From positions 1-35,329 of IMG/VR virus record IMGVR_UViG_3300047446_000100: DNA of 35,329 nucleotides, one strand, 5' to 3'. The position numbers and the translations under genes are program-made. How positions within the stretch are numbered: position 1 is the first letter of the stretch; each line of letters starts with the position of its first letter. Shown piece after piece: positions 22,330 through 35,329 of this stretch. The notes beneath the pieces were generated by a model that saw nothing but the letters and a program-made list of their open reading frames with translations, did not search any database and was not told the DNA's origin. Origin of the DNA: a virus.

Positions 22330-22776
22330 TCACCCCTGCCCCACCCTTTTCCGCTTCGCCGCCTCGGCCCGCTCGAACTTCAGCAACGCCAGCTGCTTCC
22401 GAAGTGCTTCAGCGACCACGTCCTTCTGCTTCAGGCGAGTCAGCATGCAGAAGTCGCGCAGCTCGTAGAACAGGTCTGTCGGCACGCGGACGTTCAACGG
22501 GACACCCGGATCTGGCCGCTCTGCCTCCGTTGCTGCCCAGTCGGGAAAGACAGGCTGCTGAACGGCTTGTTCGGCAGGAACGGGGGTCTGCGCCGGCTGC
22601 TGCACGGCAACGGCGCCAGCGGCCCGCTGCGGCCCTTCCTGCGGCTTCGGAGCGGCTGCGGGAGCCTCCGGTGCAGCGGCTTCGGCCGCAGGCGCTGTAG
22701 CGCCGTTCTCGATCACGTCTTGGGCTTGTGCCAGGTCGGCCATCATCGCGGCGCCACGGGGTGTGCGAGCTTTCAT
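22330..22776 (-). CDS. Ribbon-helix-helix partition partner (ParG-like), 148 aa
   Basis: The C-terminal 50 residues (PLNVRVPTDLFYELRDFCML, a second helix, basic end KRKRV) form a ribbon-helix-helix DNA-binding domain. The N-terminal 90 residues are Ala/Pro/Gln-rich and disordered, a plausible site to contact ParA. It follows parA with an ATGA overlap, the classic order for a ParA plus centromere-binding protein (ParG/ParB analogue). It probably binds the palindrome upstream of parA and represses the operon. No ParB (HTH type) gene is visible. Confidence 0.75.
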   Translation of the reverse strand: MKARTPRGAAMMADLAQAQDVIENGATAPAAEAAAPEAPAAAPKPQEGPQRAAGAVAVQQPAQTPVPAEQAVQQPVFPDWAATEAERPDPGVPLNVRVPTDLFYELRDFCMLTRLKQKDVVAEALRKQLALLKFERAEAAKRKRVGQG

Positions 22777-23450
22777 TTTCCGAAGATCTCCAGGTACAGG
22801 TTTTTGATTTCGAGCGCGGCCAGCGGGTCGAACTCGCGGCCCGTCAGCTCATGCACGCCAAGCCCGCGGGCCATTGCAAATTTGAACGCGACGCGCGTGC
22901 CGACGCGGTCCTTCAGCAGAGGCACATGGGCCTTGAACTGTTCGAGGCCTTCGATCATTTCGTTGAGAATCCGCTTGCTGCCCGACGACTTGTTCAGCAG
23001 GATGCCGATCTTCAGCTTCCGTCTGAGCGACCGCTCCAGCTCGTCGACCACGCCCGCGAGCTTAGGCACGGTGTTCAGATCGGCCGGCGACGGCTCCAGC
23101 GGCACGACGATCCGGTCTGCGGCCACCATCGCGGCGCGGAAAAGGTCTGTGTCCTTGCCGCCCACGTCGATGAACACGTCGCTATATTCGCCCAGGAGCT
23201 TGTCCAGCTCGCGAGCAAACGCGTCACGCGGCTTTTCCCGCGCCTTTGGCTCTAGCGTCTTAACGTCCACCGTAGGCAGTTGAGGGTTGTCCTCGGCGCG
23301 CGTCTCACCCCAAACCACGCTGGTCCCCTGCCCGTCCAGGTCGAAGATCACACACTTGGACCTCAAGCCCGCCCGCACGGCGGCTACGCTCTGCGTTAGC
23401 GTGCTCTTCCCCGGCCCGCCCTTCTCGGCGGCTATCACGACGACACTCAT
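22773..23450 (-). CDS. parA: ParA-family partition ATPase, 225 aa
   Basis: Deviant Walker A EKGGPGKST (residues 9-17, with the ParA-type Lys at 10), Walker A' FDLDGQGTS, and Walker B FIDVGGKD with the downstream VPLEPSPADL helix. The size is that of small type Ib ParA/ParF proteins, without an N-terminal HTH. The start at 23450 has AGGA eight bases before it; the reading from 23558 adds a non-conserved extension and is rejected. With the RHH protein it should segregate the plasmid form of the phage. Confidence 0.93.
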   Translation of the reverse strand: MSVVVIAAEKGGPGKSTLTQSVAAVRAGLRSKCVIFDLDGQGTSVVWGETRAEDNPQLPTVDVKTLEPKAREKPRDAFARELDKLLGEYSDVFIDVGGKDTDLFRAAMVAADRIVVPLEPSPADLNTVPKLAGVVDELERSLRRKLKIGILLNKSSGSKRILNEMIEGLEQFKAHVPLLKDRVGTRVAFKFAMARGLGVHELTGREFDPLAALEIKNLYLEIFGK

Positions 23451-23461
23451 GGTCACTTCCT

Positions 23462-23479
23462 CAACGTGGTGGATTGTTG
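23462..23479 (-). promoter_or_regulatory. TCCACCAC leader hairpin before parA
   Basis: On the - strand CAAC pairs with GTTG around a ten-base loop that contains TCCACCAC. The stem is only four bases, so folding is uncertain, but loop sequence and position 12-29 bases before the start match the other elements. Confidence 0.4.
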
Positions 23480-23535
23480 CAAGAGGATAAGGGATCGAGC
23501 GAGACAGATCAACGTCGTGGATGACACTTGACTCG

Positions 23536-23576
23536 ATTATATGCGACCTAGACAACAAACTAGCTAACTAGCTAGT
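23536..23576 (-). promoter_or_regulatory. parA promoter and palindromic operator
   Basis: TATAAT is on the - strand at 23541-23536. The -35 zone is covered by ACTAGCTA-AC-TAGCTAGT (23559-23576), an 18-bp near-perfect palindrome, with CTAGTCG copies alongside. This fits an autoregulated par operon; the same array could also be the centromere. Confidence 0.65.
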
Positions 23577-27674: not shown

Positions 27675-30596
27675 TTAGCGGTGTGGTGTGCCGTCCGTCA
27701 GACCGCCGTGTCGCAGGAGTGCCCACACGTTGGAGCGGATCGCTGCGGCGACGGTCGTCTGCATCGGGTTGTTGGGAAGCGGATCGTCGAGATTGATCGT
27801 CGAGGACCAGCTCATGAAGCCTTCGGCCATGTTCGTGTCGAAGATGAACTGGCGAAGCGCATCGCCGTCTGGACCGTTCGAGCAGTAGTTCAACGACAGA
27901 ACATCGAAGATGTGATCTCTGCGCAGCTCGCGCAACATCGTCTTGATGCCCTGGTTGAATTCGATCGAGTCCGGATCAGTGATCGGCGAGTAGATGCCAG
28001 TGTCGAAGTTGTAATCGACCAGCCAGCTCTCGAACATCACGTAGCTGCAAGACGAGATGATCTTCGGCAGCACGGTGAAGCCACGGTTAGAGCAGAAGAG
28101 GGCGTTAGGCCAGAGTGCTTTCAGGCTGTTGATCACGTCTGCCATTGCCTGCTGAAATTGCGCAGACGGGTACACGTCCACGGTATCAACCGTGTCCATG
28201 AAGAGGCCATCGCATTGCAGGCCTTTGCGCGTGTACGTCAGCAGCAGGTTCGAACCAGCGGTGAGTGCAGCGTGACCCGCATCGACGCCCGCGTTGGTCG
28301 GCAGCGTGAAGGCGCCCGTTACCTTGTCGTAGTTGTAGTCGAGGTTGAGCTTGTACGTGAACGTGCCATCCGCGCTGGTCAAGATCAGATCTTCAGCATC
28401 GTCGATCGGCCAGTCGTTCGCGCGGAAGGAGAACAGCGACGCACCGTATGCAGCGATCGTCTTCAGTTCGTTCGTGTGCTTCACAGGTGCGTTGAGCACC
28501 GTGGGTAGGTACTGCGTCTGGAGCTTCTGCTTCCATCGCGGCGCGAGCGGATTGACGAACGTCGAACCCCAGATACCGTTCTGGTCCGGGAAGTCTTCAG
28601 TCAACGCAAAGTCCTGGCCCCAGCCTACGTCCGGAGCCGTCCACTTCGGGCACTTCTTGTTGACCGGCGTGTACTTCGAGCAGCTGGAATTCGTGCAGGC
28701 CGACATGGCGTCACGCTGCCAGTTGTTCGCGCTCGTGAAGCCACCGCCGCACTTACCGCCTGCGCTTTGCGTCACGTAGCCGGCGCGTGAGTCGAACGTG
28801 CAGGCGAGGCTACAGCGCCCGCGACCTGTGAAGTATTCGGCGCGGCCGATCTGGCATTGCTTCAGCCCCTGCGTGCGTTGAAGATCAAGATTGCATTCAT
28901 TCGGTTCGCCGAAGCCGTTGCCGCCCTTGTTGTAGTACGAGGCGTAGCCGCCCGTGCCTTGTCCATCATCGACATACGGGCCAAGGGGCGAGGTAGGGTT
29001 ATAGATGTCCTGCAAGACGCCATCTTCCTCTCCGAAGGAGACGTAACCTAGAACCTTGATCCCTCTGCTTTGGAAGTCAGCGACTTCCTTTGCCGACACA
29101 CCGTTCGGGTCAATCACGACGAGGTCGTAATCCGCCAGCAGGCTGTGCTTGCCAGACTGGTAGTAGACCGCGAAGGTGGGGAAGCGAGCGTAAGCGTTCG
29201 CTCCTTTGACGGTAGCGTTGTCGCGCGGCAGCGTCAGATCCTTCCGGCTCGGGTCAGGGTTCTGCCACTGCACACCAAGGATCGGATCGACCCACGAGTC
29301 CACTGCGAAGGGCGGGATACCGTTGAACGAGTAGTTCAGGAAAATCGTTTCGTTGACCTGGCTGTACATGTCAACGGATGTGCCCGCGATCTGCGTCATC
29401 ACGAACGGCTTAGAGGCCGCAAGGAGAGACGTGATCACCACCGTCTTCAGACCAGCGGGAAGGCCGCTGATCGTCTGCACGGCTAGGAAGCCTCCACCGT
29501 TAGCGTCGTTCGATGTCAGCGTTCCGTAGTTGACGCCCGCGACTGTCACGCTGGCCGTGCCCCAGCCGAAGTCACGCATCAACGTGAAGTCGAGCGAGGT
29601 CGCGGCGGTGCTGAAGGAGATCGTCTTGTTCGCGCCGTTCGAGATCACACGCGTCGAGCCATCGGGTGTGGCTGTGTCCACCGACCAGGCTGACGAGTTC
29701 GGGCCGAAGGTCAGCACATTGCTGGTCATCAGATAGGCGAACGGCGTGCTCACCTGGACGGCGCCGGCAGGATCCCGGTACAGGCCCGAGAGGTACAGCG
29801 GGAAGGCCACGTTGTCGGCCTGCCCGGTGCCGTCGACCATGTAGTCGAGATCGAACTGCGTACCCGGTGCGATCGTGCCGATGGTGACCGGCGTCGGGAA
29901 GGCGCTGCCATCCTGCTTCGTCAGTGCGGCCGGCAGGCTCAGCGAGACGCTGAGCGCGTTCTGCGTGCCTTTGTTCGCCAGCGAGAAGCGGCCCTTGTTC
30001 TGGCCAGTGGCCTTCCAGCCGCTCAGCATCAACGGCTGCTTGTTGTAAGAGCGCACCTTGGCGCCGGCCAGCACGAAGAAGGCATCCGCACCGCTGTTGT
30101 TCGCGTAGACATCGACCTTGTGCAGACCGGGAGTCAGGCCGTCAGCAACCAGCACATCGAGGTACTGGTGCGCGCCGTCGCCGTTCAGGCCGGGGTAGGT
30201 CGCTGTATCGACATTGCTCGTGAGCGTATCGAGCGCGGTCTTCAGACCCATCGTGCTCGGCTTCTGGCCGTCGATGTAGATCGACGCGGAACCCCAGCCG
30301 TAGTCCAGCTCGATGCGCAGCACGAGCGCGGTGCCGTTGAAGTTCAACGTCGCCTTGCCTTTGGTCGCGTATAGGCGCGGCTCCTGCTGCGCGGCGTCCA
30401 TCGTGTTGTCGCCTTCGTCCACCGCCCACGCGCCCTTGATGGTCGAGGAAGACCCCGGCATCGAGAACGTGTTCGCCTGGACGAAAGCGCTGGCCGGGAA
30501 GAACTGGTCGCGCAGGTTCGCCGGGTCCAGCCCCTGGTTGAAGGAGCCGGGATAGAGCTGGAGGAAGTCGTTGACTGAGTCCCACGGTGGTCGCAT
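27675..30596 (-). CDS. Tailspike-like protein with GH114-like barrel, 973 aa
   Basis: Residues 1-410 are beta-sandwich modules, including an internal duplication (DYGWGSASIYIDG at 98-110 and DFGWGTASVTVAG at 342-354). Residues 470-930 resemble GH114 (endo-alpha-1,4-polygalactosaminidase, spherulin-4-like) TIM barrels: YDLVVIDPNGVSAKEVADFQ, GIKVLGYVSFGEED, CDGLFMDTVDTVD (Asp801), CSNRGF. A Cys-rich insertion at about 568-649 holds eight Cys. This predicts depolymerisation of a galactosamine-type surface polysaccharide. The start at 30596 follows the previous TAA with GGGGG in front. The enzyme assignment is by motif pattern, not search. Confidence 0.8.
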   Translation of the reverse strand: MRPPWDSVNDFLQLYPGSFNQGLDPANLRDQFFPASAFVQANTFSMPGSSSTIKGAWAVDEGDNTMDAAQQEPRLYATKGKATLNFNGTALVLRIELDYGWGSASIYIDGQKPSTMGLKTALDTLTSNVDTATYPGLNGDGAHQYLDVLVADGLTPGLHKVDVYANNSGADAFFVLAGAKVRSYNKQPLMLSGWKATGQNKGRFSLANKGTQNALSVSLSLPAALTKQDGSAFPTPVTIGTIAPGTQFDLDYMVDGTGQADNVAFPLYLSGLYRDPAGAVQVSTPFAYLMTSNVLTFGPNSSAWSVDTATPDGSTRVISNGANKTISFSTAATSLDFTLMRDFGWGTASVTVAGVNYGTLTSNDANGGGFLAVQTISGLPAGLKTVVITSLLAASKPFVMTQIAGTSVDMYSQVNETIFLNYSFNGIPPFAVDSWVDPILGVQWQNPDPSRKDLTLPRDNATVKGANAYARFPTFAVYYQSGKHSLLADYDLVVIDPNGVSAKEVADFQSRGIKVLGYVSFGEEDGVLQDIYNPTSPLGPYVDDGQGTGGYASYYNKGGNGFGEPNECNLDLQRTQGLKQCQIGRAEYFTGRGRCSLACTFDSRAGYVTQSAGGKCGGGFTSANNWQRDAMSACTNSSCSKYTPVNKKCPKWTAPDVGWGQDFALTEDFPDQNGIWGSTFVNPLAPRWKQKLQTQYLPTVLNAPVKHTNELKTIAAYGASLFSFRANDWPIDDAEDLILTSADGTFTYKLNLDYNYDKVTGAFTLPTNAGVDAGHAALTAGSNLLLTYTRKGLQCDGLFMDTVDTVDVYPSAQFQQAMADVINSLKALWPNALFCSNRGFTVLPKIISSCSYVMFESWLVDYNFDTGIYSPITDPDSIEFNQGIKTMLRELRRDHIFDVLSLNYCSNGPDGDALRQFIFDTNMAEGFMSWSSTINLDDPLPNNPMQTTVAAAIRSNVWALLRHGGLTDGTPHR

Positions 30597-31301
30597 TTAA
30601 ACCCCCGTCGAGACCGTGCGCAGCAGCGCGCCGGAGATCGTCGTGCTCGACGCCTGGTTATAGAACTTGAACACGAGCTTGTTCGTCGGGGCCAGTTTGT
30701 CCACCGTGAAGGGGCGGCTGTCGCGGTACGACGCGGCGAGCTGCGCGGCGCTCGCATAGATCACGGTGTCGATGCCGCCGCTGTCGCGTTCGCAGATCTC
30801 GACGCGGTACGGATCAGTCGTCTGCACGACGATTCGCAGCGACTGGAACATTACCGTGGGCTTGCCGAAGGAGGGCACAGAGCCAGTCATGTCCAGCTCG
30901 GCATGCGCGCCGGCTGCTACATCCGGGATCTGGTACGAGAACACGTCATAGAAGCTGTCGCCCTTCGGGCCGGCAGGACCAGCAGGCCCCGCTGCGCCGT
31001 CCACGCCCTTCGGCCCAGGATCGCCCGGTGCGCCGTCGAGGCCGCGGTCGCCGGTGTTCCCCCTCAGCGAGTAGCCAGCGGGCCACAGGCCGTTGGCTTT
31101 CGGGCCGTAGAAGTATCCGTTGTCGTCGTTCATGTACGAGTCGCCGTCGACACCGATGTCGTTCGACGGCGCACCGCTTCCATGTATGAGCTTTACTGGC
31201 ATGTTGGAACCGAGATTGTTATAGACCGGCGCAATGACCAGCACGATAGGCTGGCCATCCGGGTTGACTGGCGCGACGGAGAGCGGGGTCGCGATGGTCA
31301 T
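30597..31301 (-). CDS. Short collagen-like tail protein, 234 aa
   Basis: The N-terminal half carries the tail-fibre motif in which GAPSNDIGVDGDSYMND precedes YGPK and a Trp (residues 43-73), common next to fibre collagen segments. A short Gly-X-Y run spans 81-115 (GNTGDRGLDGAPGDPGPKG). The C-terminal half is beta-rich (FQSLRIVVQTTDPYRVEICER). It likely links tail and spike. ATG at 31301 overlaps the Rz stop region by four bases. Confidence 0.82.
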   Translation of the reverse strand: MTIATPLSVAPVNPDGQPIVLVIAPVYNNLGSNMPVKLIHGSGAPSNDIGVDGDSYMNDDNGYFYGPKANGLWPAGYSLRGNTGDRGLDGAPGDPGPKGVDGAAGPAGPAGPKGDSFYDVFSYQIPDVAAGAHAELDMTGSVPSFGKPTVMFQSLRIVVQTTDPYRVEICERDSGGIDTVIYASAAQLAASYRDSRPFTVDKLAPTNKLVFKFYNQASSTTISGALLRTVSTGV

Positions 31302-32214: not shown

Positions 32215-32609
32215 GTCCGACCCCGTTCGAGTAGTAGATTGCGGAAGCTCAACAGCAATCCGAAGAAAGCCATCGAGCCGTACACCGCGAAGGCGTCGAG
32301 GGGGACGCTCTTATATGTTTGTTCAGCGATGAAGAGAAAAGAGGTAAAGGCGAAAGACACAACCGGATAAACCCAGTGTCTCCAACGAAGACCCCAATGA
32401 AAAACGTACCGCTCCGGCATGAGATCGTTCACGACGATGTCGATCAGCAGCAGTACGACAGCAGCAATCAGCATCGTGGTGTAGAACGCTCCACCACTCA
32501 CGTCGCTGACCACAGCAACCCAGTTGTTCGAAAAGCAGACGAGGGCGACGACCAGCACTGCGTAGGTCGTGAAGCCCAGACGTGCTATGAAGTCACTCGT
32601 GCGCGGCAT
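32199..32609 (-). CDS. Multi-pass membrane protein of the lysis cassette, 136 aa
   Basis: Four hydrophobic segments are visible: FTTYAVLVVALVCFSNN, FYTTMLIAAVVLLLIDIVV, WVYPVVSFAFTSFLFIAE, FAVYGSMAFFGLLLSF. There is no enzyme motif. Between the endolysin and the LydA-like holin it may be an antiholin or second holin, as two-protein holin systems are usual in such cassettes. Start chosen at 32609, overlapping the endolysin TGA by one base (TGATG). Confidence 0.75.
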   Translation of the reverse strand: MPRTSDFIARLGFTTYAVLVVALVCFSNNWVAVVSDVSGGAFYTTMLIAAVVLLLIDIVVNDLMPERYVFHWGLRWRHWVYPVVSFAFTSFLFIAEQTYKSVPLDAFAVYGSMAFFGLLLSFRNLLLERGRTCNKQ

Positions 32610-33139
32610 CAGTTCACTCCCAGCGCGGTGCGGGCGAGCGCGAGGTAATGCTCCCGGTCTGCGAGACCGTTCGTGCCGCCGTTGATCACCTTGGTCACTG
32701 CGACGAAGTCTTTCTTCGCCGCGAGGTTGTCGAGATGGTGGTTCCACCAGAAGGCTGCGGCACTCAGGCATGCGTTCGCCGGCTCTTCGAGCAGTTCCGG
32801 GTGGTTGATCAGGTCGAGGTCGAGCAGATGACCCATGAGCACATAGTTCGTATAGCCTGTGCATTGGATCAAGCCACGGCCCTTGTACAAGACGCCCCAG
32901 CCAGGTTGCGTGTTGCCGAGATCCTTGCGGCCTTCATACGCTTGACCGCTGGCCAGCTCCTTGAGCCATTGGCCTTCGCCAGACTCATGCGAGACTTGAG
33001 CCAGGAACTCGACGATCTCTTCAGGTGTGTCGATGCCGAAACGTGACATCGCGTTGTTCAGAAGCGGGGCGAACTGCACGCAGCGAGCTGACGGTGCGCG
33101 TGTCCAGATCTGCCGCAGCTGATCGGATGTGATGGCCAT
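32609..33139 (-). CDS. GH19 (chitinase-like) endolysin, 176 aa
   Basis: Peptidoglycan hydrolase of the GH19 type found in phages of Gram-negative hosts. The first catalytic Glu is in QVSHESGEG (residues 49-56; Glu52 with Glu55 nearby). YKGRGLIQCTGYTNY is the family signature, followed by NACLSAAAFWWNHH and the final helix with VINGGTNGL. The full length is one catalytic domain without a cell-wall-binding module or signal peptide, so the holin must release it. Start 33139 is chosen because upstream sequence is promoter; its Shine-Dalgarno is weak. Confidence 0.93.
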   Translation of the reverse strand: MAITSDQLRQIWTRAPSARCVQFAPLLNNAMSRFGIDTPEEIVEFLAQVSHESGEGQWLKELASGQAYEGRKDLGNTQPGWGVLYKGRGLIQCTGYTNYVLMGHLLDLDLINHPELLEEPANACLSAAAFWWNHHLDNLAAKKDFVAVTKVINGGTNGLADREHYLALARTALGVN

Positions 33140-33143
33140 TGAA

Positions 33144-33167
33144 GCACTCTGTGGTGGTGGTGAGTGC
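33144..33167 (-). promoter_or_regulatory. Leader hairpin with CAC-rich loop at the lysis operon start
   Basis: On the - strand GCACTC pairs perfectly with GAGTGC around a 12-base loop ACCACCACCACA. It begins at or next to the predicted transcription start (about 33165) and ends four bases before the endolysin ATG. Confidence 0.55.
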
Positions 33168-33171
33168 CGAA

Positions 33172-33200
33172 ATTTTATTGGCCACGAAAACCCAATACAA
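33172..33200 (-). promoter_or_regulatory. Sigma70-like promoter of the lysis/adsorption operon
   Basis: On the - strand TTGTAT (33200-33195), a 17-bp spacer and TAAAAT (33177-33172) predict a start near 33165. It lies directly after a terminator, so the lysis and fibre genes have their own entry point. Confidence 0.68.
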
Positions 33201-33223
33201 AGAGTTTCTTCGCACAGCAAACG

Positions 33224-33250
33224 AAAAGGGAACCGCTGCGGTTCCCTTTT
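33224..33250 (-). terminator. Rho-independent terminator
   Basis: AAAAGGGAACC (33224-33234) pairs perfectly with GGTTCCCTTTT (33240-33250) around a five-base loop. It closes the radical SAM operon 24 bases after the 33274 stop and could also work on the other strand. Confidence 0.85.
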
Positions 33251-33273: not shown

Positions 33274-33663
33274 TTACGCGGGCAGCGCTTCGGCTACTGC
33301 GTACGCATACGCGGGGGCCGCGTCGGCCGGCAGTGCTACGGCGCCGCCTGTGGTGGCGGGTACTTTCGTGTAGCAGTCAAGCTGGCGTTGCTGGCTAAGG
33401 ATCGTCTCGTTCAGAGCCTTGACCACGCGCTCGTGTTCTTCCTTGTCTAGCCCGTACAGATTCTGTTGCTGCGTCATGGCGACCAGCGTGTCGTCGAGCA
33501 TCGACTGCGTCTTCGCGTGCGCGGCCAGCGTCTGTTGAAGCGCGGCCTGCGTCGAGAAGAGCGCGGCCTCAGCGTGCGCAACGCGGTCGCATTGTTCGTT
33601 GCGCTGACGCGTCAGTGCGTCGATCAGCGGTTGCGGGTCGAGGGCTTGTGGGGTGTCGTTCAT
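33274..33663 (-). CDS. Coiled-coil protein with Ala/Tyr tail, 129 aa, next to radical SAM enzyme
   Basis: Residues 10-95 are a long, mostly Gln/Ala/Glu coiled coil (ALTRQRNEQCDRVAHAEAAL onwards). The C-terminal 30 residues change character: VPATTGGAVALPADAA, then PAYAYAVAEALPA, small-residue and Tyr-rich without charge. The gene overlaps the radical SAM stop by four bases and ends before a terminator, so the two are co-expressed. The tail is a candidate target of the radical SAM enzyme, but it could equally be a fibre- or tail-associated protein. Not a recognised precursor family. Confidence 0.8.
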   Translation of the reverse strand: MNDTPQALDPQPLIDALTRQRNEQCDRVAHAEAALFSTQAALQQTLAAHAKTQSMLDDTLVAMTQQQNLYGLDKEEHERVVKALNETILSQQRQLDCYTKVPATTGGAVALPADAAPAYAYAVAEALPA

Positions 33664-35009
33664 TGCGGTTTGATCCAGATAGGGTTGCGGGTGGTGGTCC
33701 GCTTGGTGGTGATGGGGCCGAAGACATTGCGACGGTGCTCGGGCAAGTGCCCCGTCATCGGCTCGATGGTCTTCAGCGTGCAGCCGGTCAGCTCGAACAG
33801 GGCGGTGGCCAGGAACACCACGTTGTCGCTGTAGGCGCTCTCGCACGTCACGTCCCAGAGGTCGTCCTCCAGGAACATGCAGGAGCCTTTGCACAGCTGC
33901 ACGACCGGGCAGCTCGAACAGTTCGAGCGTGTCGACCAGTGGCGCGACGACTCGAGTTTCACCGCGTCGATGCTCTCGATCGATCCGGCGCGGTGCGGCT
34001 TGCCGTTGGGCGCCACAGAGACAGCCGACACGTTCTGGCACGTCAGCACGTCGCCGTTGAGCGTGGTAGTGACCACGTCGCTGCGATCAGAGCCGCACTT
34101 CTGTCCGACCGACAGGCCGGGGCGGCTCGTCTCGATGGAGCGCGCGAAGTCGTGGATCTTTTCGGCGACGCTCGTGAAGTTCAGGGCGCGGCCCGTGCGC
34201 AGCTCGTCGAACGACTGCTGACGATAGGCGATGTGCGCGTGAAGGTCGAGCATCGACATGCCCTTGCCGCCCTCGTCGTAGGCATCGATCAGCATGCCCT
34301 CACCGATGGGCACGTTCTCGTCGCCGGTCAGCTTGATGAAGAACTCCTGCGCTGCGGCGCGCGATCGGTTGTCCTTATGCAGCATCGTGTTGAACGACAT
34401 GCGCCCGAGCGGCGCGAGCCGGCGATACAGCGACAGGATCGCCTCCCGCGTCTGCGGGTCGTCGAGCGGATCGGGGCCACGCACCTTCTGGCCGGGGCCA
34501 TCGTGCGAGAGGCCGATGTGGAAGCCGTTCGTGACCAGCCAGCTCACCTTGTTGGCGTCGAGCAGAGAGCCGTTCGTGATCATCTTCAGCGTGAGCGCCG
34601 GGTAGCGCATGCGCAAAGCCTCCACCAGTGGGACAAGAGTTTTCCAGTAGACCAGCGGCTCGCCACCCCAGATCTCGACCTCCGCGTCGTCGGCCAGCGT
34701 GACGGACCAGGTGAGGCGCGACATGAAGTGATCGACGGAGTAGGGGCCGGTGGCGTCCGCGTGCGGCACGAAGCGCTGCGAGCAGTATTCGCAGCTGTAG
34801 TTGCACGACAGCCCGAGCTGGATCTTCAGCGTGCGGATCAGCGCGTCCTTGCCGCCCGGTGGCTTGGCAGGAACATATGGGTGGTCGCCGGTCTTGCTGA
34901 CGAGCGAGCGGCCAGTGCTCGCGTCGGTCAGCTGACTCGACATGTTGTTGTACAAAAAACTACGCTCGACGCCGCGGGCGTCGAGCGCTTTGAGAACGAA
35001 CGAAGTCAT
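33660..35009 (-). CDS. Radical SAM/SPASM enzyme, 449 aa
   Basis: The 4Fe-4S cluster motif is Cys69-x3-Cys73-x2-Cys76 (SCNYSCEYC) and the SAM-binding GGEP is at 115-118 (WGGEPL). The C-terminal SPASM domain carries KCGSDRSDV, GDVLTCQNV, then CSSCPVVQLCKGSC and DVTCES, enough Cys for two auxiliary clusters. Enzymes of this class modify peptides or proteins (sulfatase maturases, RiPP crosslinking enzymes). It overlaps the 129-aa gene by ATGA and follows the edge-truncated gene the same way. Such an enzyme is unusual in a tail-gene region; the substrate is unknown. Confidence 0.93.
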   Translation of the reverse strand: MTSFVLKALDARGVERSFLYNNMSSQLTDASTGRSLVSKTGDHPYVPAKPPGGKDALIRTLKIQLGLSCNYSCEYCSQRFVPHADATGPYSVDHFMSRLTWSVTLADDAEVEIWGGEPLVYWKTLVPLVEALRMRYPALTLKMITNGSLLDANKVSWLVTNGFHIGLSHDGPGQKVRGPDPLDDPQTREAILSLYRRLAPLGRMSFNTMLHKDNRSRAAAQEFFIKLTGDENVPIGEGMLIDAYDEGGKGMSMLDLHAHIAYRQQSFDELRTGRALNFTSVAEKIHDFARSIETSRPGLSVGQKCGSDRSDVVTTTLNGDVLTCQNVSAVSVAPNGKPHRAGSIESIDAVKLESSRHWSTRSNCSSCPVVQLCKGSCMFLEDDLWDVTCESAYSDNVVFLATALFELTGCTLKTIEPMTGHLPEHRRNVFGPITTKRTTTRNPIWIKPQ

Positions 35010-35329
35010 GGGGCTGTGGTGGTGAGATAGGTTTTTTGCCGCTCACGTAGTGCGTTTTTGAACGCAATTACATCAGCGACAACTACCCCGGTATCCTTCA
35101 GTTTCAGCACGCCAGCGTCAAGGAGTTTTTGGCGGTACTCGTCGGGGATCAGCGCGGCTACCCACTGCGTCAGCAGATCCACCTGGGCTTCGAGCGCGGC
35201 GAGCGAGTCGTTGGTCTTCGTGTCTTTCAGCAGCTTGTGCTTCGCATGCCAGCGGTCGATCGTCGGAGCCAGCTCGGGCATGACGCGTTTGAGCAGCATG
35301 TCACCAGAATCCGCAGACTTGTCTTCCTG
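35006..35329 (-). CDS. Hypothetical protein, probably cut by the window edge
   Basis: The frame is open from the window edge and reaches TGA at 35006, overlapping the radical SAM ATG. An ATG at 35299 would give 97 residues, but the codons before it (QEDKSADSGD) read like protein and lack a good ribosome binding site, so the gene probably continues outside. The visible part is helical with a coiled-coil character (LAALEAQVDLLTQWVAALI) and ends in LTTTAP. No family recognised. Confidence 0.65.
   Translation of the reverse strand, partial: QEDKSADSGDMLLKRVMPELAPTIDRWHAKHKLLKDTKTNDSLAALEAQVDLLTQWVAALIPDEYRQKLLDAGVLKLKDTGVVVADVIAFKNALRERQKTYLTTTAP

Follow-up and report, generated by a model that had tools for sequence, protein, structure and literature searches.

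A radical SAM/SPASM gene of tailed phages and the alternating-cysteine fibre tail proposed as its substrate

The enzyme gene and its operon

The stretch of DNA analysed here (hereafter the window) is one viral record of 35,329 bases, and the features near its end are collected in Table 1. As the original prediction from the sequence had stated, the window carries a complete radical SAM/SPASM gene with the CxxxCxxC motif, GGEP (residues 115-118 of the translation) and a full set of SPASM cysteines. ATGA overlaps couple this gene on both sides, to the gene upstream (...CCCCATGACTTCGT) and to the gene for a 129-aa protein (...CCGCAATGAACGAC), and the terminator described after the latter gene is represented by a hairpin directly 3' of its reading frame. 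A further 12-bp GC-rich hairpin followed by six T was observed at 34962-34988 (-), inside the first 50 bases of the enzyme reading frame, where it could attenuate expression of the enzyme relative to the upstream genes.

The assignment of the gene to a phage tail region also holds, with a tail and lysis context and a gene order that matches that of Achromobacter phage JWF (tape measure, J, fibre, gp029, radical SAM, gp031, endolysin). JWF and Achromobacter phage 2-1 are the closest isolated phages found, with enzyme identities of 56% and 54%; both have a small protein between J and the fibre, a 240-aa protein before the radical SAM gene and a protein of about 130 aa after it. Closer relatives, with identities of 71-98%, are present in IMG/VR. 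One of these contigs, L005, shares 2.6 kb with the window at about 97% identity and extends beyond the window edge.

Table 1. Features of the enzyme operon and its surroundings in the window
Feature	Position	Strand	Basis or remark
Radical SAM/SPASM enzyme, 449 aa	33660..35009	(-)	Open reading frame and translation; phage family phrog_1802, E=1e-58; AlphaFold pLDDT 84; Foldseek
Radical SAM cluster motif CxxxCxxC (C69, C73, C76)	34782..34805	(-)	Invariant in 110 relatives
SPASM region C305 to C389, seven Cys	33843..34097	(-)	Pattern match and conservation in 110 relatives
~233-aa protein, last 107 residues, cut by window edge	35006..35329	(-)	Possible accessory
129-aa protein, clade-specific, unsupported as substrate	33274..33663	(-)	Open reading frame, distribution, tail comparison
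Terminator-like hairpin, operon end	33224..33250	(-)	12-bp stem and T-rich tail
Endolysin gene, context only, start codon uncertain	32609..33220	(-)	phrog_181, E=3e-56; Pfam Glyco_hydro_19

SPASM enzymes are known to mature peptides and proteins. The original prediction proposed that this one may act on a virion protein or peptide, an idea that is well supported for a virion protein, and named as substrate either the 129-aa protein or the upstream protein truncated at the window edge, both of which look wrong. The 129-aa protein, whose coiled-coil character was judged by eye, ends in VALPADAAPAYAYAVAEALPA; its family occurs in 8 of 124 distinct enzyme loci, all from the window's own phage clade, and no match was found in most of the other enzyme-bearing records that were searched whole. 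Because the family is so restricted and its Ala/Tyr/Pro tail differs in every relative, the proposal fails for this protein. Enzyme homologues that lack such a linked coiled-coil partner were indeed found, an outcome that the prediction had itself named as evidence against the proposal. The family of the truncated upstream protein (P0003) is present in 29 of the 124 loci, in 27 of them directly before the enzyme, and is at most an accessory and not a general substrate. Thus, despite the proximity and ATGA coupling that speak for them, it is highly unlikely that either of these proteins is the substrate.

The alternating-cysteine tail and its linkage to the enzyme

The most informative partner, the fibre gene, is absent from the window, which ends before it; L005 continues past that edge and shows the fibre beyond it. 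In L005 the gene two upstream of the enzyme encodes a 484-aa tail fibre (...QLVRVFA-NCNCNCACT-CFPAGTRILMADRSW...), and in every near relative, L005 included, the fibre two genes upstream has NCNCNCACT directly before an intein-like Hint domain. In relatives that have no Hint domain the fibre itself ends in such a tail, for example NCNCNCNCDCYC-stop in a 307-aa type. The residue between the tail cysteines is Asn in 325 cases, Asp in 48, Ala in 33 and another residue in 58, and the cysteine run mostly ends 0-6 residues before the stop codon. Nine fibres of the window clade agree in all nine tail residues, with silent differences in three of the codons, and differ at 14 of the 20 positions preceding the tail. 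The candidate substrate is mostly a fibre-like protein of 90-600 aa. The proteins that bear the tail form six groups, with no blastp similarity from one group to another (99, 3, 2, 2, 1 and 1 members), and the tail is therefore portable, although one fibre family is dominant. At some loci (L146, L147 and L167) three small proteins in a row each carry a Cys tail.

The linkage of enzyme and tail was examined in both directions. The forward set consisted of the 80 best of at least 567 confirmed IMG/VR relatives of the enzyme, fetched by enzyme alignment alone. A reading frame with CxCxCxC was present in 64 of these best 80 loci, nearly always upstream, on the strand of the enzyme and usually at the end of a fibre-like frame. 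When duplicates were removed and at least 5 kb of upstream DNA was demanded, 57 distinct loci remained from the same best 80, of which 51 have a protein with CxCxC or a longer run upstream of the enzyme and none has one downstream. Three of the six misses do carry the tail, two in a frame dropped by the gene caller (L021 and L035) and one about 6.1 kb upstream (L044). No tail protein was detected in L032, L065 or the edge-cut L046, and these three loci count against the fibre as substrate.

In the reverse direction, IMG/VR was searched with a codon-degenerate DNA pattern for NCNCNC[N/D]C alone, and the loci were then screened for the enzyme with an HMM made from the forward relatives. Of 120 pattern loci, 94 have the motif at a reading-frame end or just before a Hint start. 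An enzyme gene follows downstream on the same strand for 73 of the 76 tail frames with at least 2 kb of downstream DNA, for all 53 in IMG/VR with at least 4 kb, and for all 44 distinct tails, each counted once, with at least 3 kb. Among the pattern loci without such a frame, which served for comparison, the enzyme was found in 3 of 26. The pattern was also tried as a tail in bacterial genome contigs and rejected there, being mostly hexanucleotide repeats and not fibre ends; kept as a second comparison set, these contigs have the enzyme in 1 of 117 loci. Because the forward and reverse sets share some contigs, the two tests are not fully independent of each other, nor are related sequences within these counts. 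The enzyme family, a large one, sits just downstream of a predicted Cys-tailed fibre gene in more than 100 viral contigs.

Genome contigs, among them those of Noviherbaspirillum and Gemmatimonadetes, often contain hexanucleotide repeats that read (Asn-Cys)n (L212-L328). Since such repeats can be mistaken for the tail, a search by motif has to demand that the match sits where a reading frame ends. Radical SAM matches in Campylobacter and Erwinia phages are short and weak, and the alternating-Cys tail is absent from the neighbours of those Campylobacter phage radical SAM genes that were read.

The tail might alternatively be mainly a metal or disulfide site on the axis of a trimeric fibre, the enzyme then modifying another part of the fibre or another protein of the operon. 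If the tail were a beta-strand in a trimeric needle, its alternating residues would all point towards the axis, as do the HxH motifs that bind iron in the tip of T4 gp37, and Thermus relatives have alternating His and Asp instead. However, what the linked proteins share is the tail and not the fibre body, as the six dissimilar carrier groups attest; the enzyme accompanies 44 of 44 distinct tails; and metal binding alone would make a SPASM enzyme unnecessary. This alternative is improbable.

The domain that follows the tail was assigned from sequence and model. In the L005 fibre the Pfam Hom_end_hint match (E 7.6e-5, below the cut-off of that family) begins with residue 307, the Cys that directly follows NCNCNCACT. 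The AlphaFold model of this fibre has a mean pLDDT of 39 and is usable only for the Hint domain, and tip geometry was not taken from it. The Hint part has 35 PDB matches at E up to 1e-3, those with names being inteins, BIL, Hedgehog and Vint, and C307 and H369 are invariant in nine fibres; the fibre of the relatives thus has a Hint fold with Cys at position 1. While the fold and the leading Cys are those of Hint/intein and Hedgehog-type autoprocessing domains, the phage domain differs in that it directly follows the Cys tail of a fibre. A tail followed by a Hint domain is found in the window clade, in JWF, whose fibre gp028 has the tail NCNCDCNCNCS, and in several distant loci, and on a quick tree of the enzyme, with a few labels assigned by a simple motif rule, the Hint label changes at least three times on well-supported branches. 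In the window clade the domain probably cleaves itself off. If it cut before C307, the fibre would end in ...NCNCNCACT, which is the type of end that relatives without the domain encode directly.

Cysteine ligands of the enzyme and the likely chemistry

The invariant C69, C73 and C76 together with the radical SAM fold of the model place the enzyme in the radical SAM superfamily, while its Pfam Radical_SAM score of 26.9 bits is slightly below the cut-off of 29.5. The seven C-terminal cysteines (C305-x13-G-x4-C324 ... C364xxC367x5C373x3C377 ... C389) follow the SPASM consensus CX9-15GX4C - CX2CX5CX3C - C, and the score with the NCBIfam SPASM model TIGR04085, 27.7, exceeds the cut-off of 27. Ten cysteines are conserved at 99-100% in the 110 relatives, namely the three of the radical SAM motif and the seven of the SPASM region (C305, C324, C364, C367, C373 and C377 at 100%, C389 at 99%). 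An eighth conserved SPASM Cys, as in anSME, was not found among these relatives, in which the next Cys is conserved at 43% at most. In the model the radical SAM core comes after about 55 residues that include three strands, and the Foldseek matches of the model are anSME, CteB, ChlB, TigE, SuiB and SkfB.

Membership of the enzyme in any curated maturase family was considered and rejected. PapB, QhpD, geopeptide, CcpM and SCIFF maturases recur as weak NCBIfam matches, all far below their cut-offs, and the curated PapB, QhpD, SCIFF and sactipeptide models are in every case far from being reached. Because these models score so low, the type of bond formed cannot be read from homology. In AlbA, seven C-terminal Cys serve two clusters, CteB has an open Aux I site that binds a substrate Cys, and in anSME both auxiliary clusters are fully ligated (PMC6231123). 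By cysteine count, which is a criterion of sequence only, the phage enzyme resembles the thioether-forming AlbA and CteB, with seven C-terminal Cys that would leave an open Aux I site, and not anSME. Thioether formation is loosely favoured because of the seven-Cys set, the fold matches and the weak maturase matches.

The same tail could instead be the target of a different chemistry, such as an anSME-like conversion of Cys to formylglycine or a thioaldehyde, epimerisation, or carbon-carbon links along the tail. The top Foldseek match of the enzyme model is anSME (E 5.7e-13), itself an enzyme that acts on Cys in a protein, and the JWF record names the gene 'anaerobic sulfatase-maturating enzyme'. 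The NCBIfam anSME model TIGR03942, however, scores 38.3 bits against a cut-off of 349, only seven SPASM cysteines are conserved whereas the auxiliary clusters of anSME are fully ligated (PMC6231123), and the short sulfatase motif targeted by anSME differs from a run of strictly alternating Cys. Such other chemistry on the tail is thus rather unlikely.

Proposed maturation of the fibre and comparison with known systems

The evidence is best explained by a SPASM maturase that modifies the fibre of its own phage at the oligo-(Asn/Asp-Cys) tail, most likely by thioether cross-links, with Hint cleavage exposing the tip in the window clade; we consider this likely. After translation of the fibre, whose gene lies two upstream of that of the enzyme, the target would be its Asn/Asp-Cys tail, which reads NCNCNCACT in the nearest relatives. 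A 5'-deoxyadenosyl radical would take a hydrogen from a carbon of Asn/Asp or of a neighbouring residue, and a Cys thiol held at the open Aux I cluster site would attack that carbon, so that thioether rings or cross-links form along the tail. In the window clade the Hint domain fused directly after the tail would then release itself and leave the tail exposed at the C-terminus. The fibre, presumably trimeric, would thereby gain a hardened distal tip, whose likely purpose would be to rigidify or lock that end. The gene linkage, the conservation of tail and motifs, the SPASM ligand set and the Hint fold are observed, and the modification with its chemistry, the order of steps and the purpose are inferred from them. 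Against this explanation stands the position of the fibre gene itself, which lies outside the window.

The ranthipeptide and sactipeptide maturases PapB, CteB and AlbA are likewise SPASM enzymes with a Cys-rich substrate encoded nearby, but they act on a small precursor peptide, where the proposed substrate of the phage enzyme is a fibre end. PapB ranks among the top NCBIfam matches of the phage enzyme, yet with 44.2 bits against the NF047865 cut-off of 340. Its substrates follow a spacing rule of Cys-X3-Asp (PMC8172795), which the C-X-C tail of the phage fibres, with X mostly Asn, does not obey, and this too argues against the proposed thioether maturation. QhpD is a radical SAM enzyme that makes Cys-to-Asp/Glu thioethers in a protein subunit and not in a peptide (PMC8172795). 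It is thus alike in having a protein substrate, as proposed for the phage enzyme, but differs in substrate and gene neighbourhood, and TIGR03906 gives the phage enzyme 43 of the 453 bits needed.

If correct, this would to our knowledge be the first case of a viral structural protein matured by a radical SAM enzyme. No description of a SPASM enzyme acting on a virion protein was found in the open-licence literature, and reports elsewhere are possible. The nearest published remark is on a distantly related module in the Thermus phages Cumys and phiMa; its authors suggested DNA modification (PMC11437467) on the basis of deazapurine gene neighbourhoods in some cyanobacteria. That module is alike in that a phage radical SAM gene directly follows the gene of a repeat-rich protein in the tail region; it differs in its identity of about 25%, in HxD instead of CxC repeats and in a DUF483 partner. 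For the enzyme of the window, DNA modification is barely credible, since its gene is flanked by tail-fibre and lysis genes, the fibre being Cys-tailed, and no DNA-modification genes were recognised next to it.

Maturation of the fibre tail would give a large group of unassigned phage radical SAM genes a concrete candidate substrate and makes a direct prediction for the cultivable Achromobacter phages JWF and 2-1. It further points to a new means of stabilising or arming the tip of a fibre and to a portable tag for modification, and it may explain why Hint domains are found fused to phage tail fibres. A broader reading is plausible, though tentative: these genes may represent a widespread class of tailed phages in which radical chemistry covalently cross-links a poly-(Asn-Cys) fibre cap, with Hint self-cleavage and 2OG-Fe oxygenases as accessory steps, a virion-maturation pathway without a described counterpart. 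The genes near fibre and enzyme differ between loci: a 2OG-Fe(II) oxygenase-like protein is encoded there in 48 of 124 loci, a protein of about 277 aa in 66 of 124, and the ~233-aa family of the window in 29. Oxygenase-like genes can separate the fibre gene from that of the enzyme, in places as a consecutive pair (L044:3923-5340, L059:266-1539, L011:9315-9944), as if further modifications were made on the same fibre.

Several observations concern more distant relatives and other parts of the window. In Cumys and phiMa (L003:5012-6043, L336:3015-4043) the protein of about 342 aa encoded directly upstream of the radical SAM gene consists largely of H-x-D repeats (HTDTHSDTHTDAHGD...), and the C-terminus of the enzyme has the same motif (HGDYTDHGDAPHGD), as it does in a 60% identical relative (L338); these repeats are possibly a second substrate code for related enzymes. 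In a phage group with a divergent radical SAM gene (L339-L343) several proteins end in ...NCNCNCDCSDDSGGG or ...NCNCDCNCNCSDDS, one of them with CQTCQGCQKC repeats before its end, and the tail of this group also occurs in a genome contig of Acidaminococcus fermentans (L258). Within the window, a 973-aa protein (27675-30596 (-)) has a full-length phrog_37372 match and a weak GH114-like stretch (E 6e-4), and its gene follows the collagen-like gene (30597-31301); it is possibly a tail-associated glycan-active protein. A ParA-like partition protein (phrog_164, E 8e-32) is encoded at 22773-23558 (-) and would be consistent with a prophage state resembling a plasmid.
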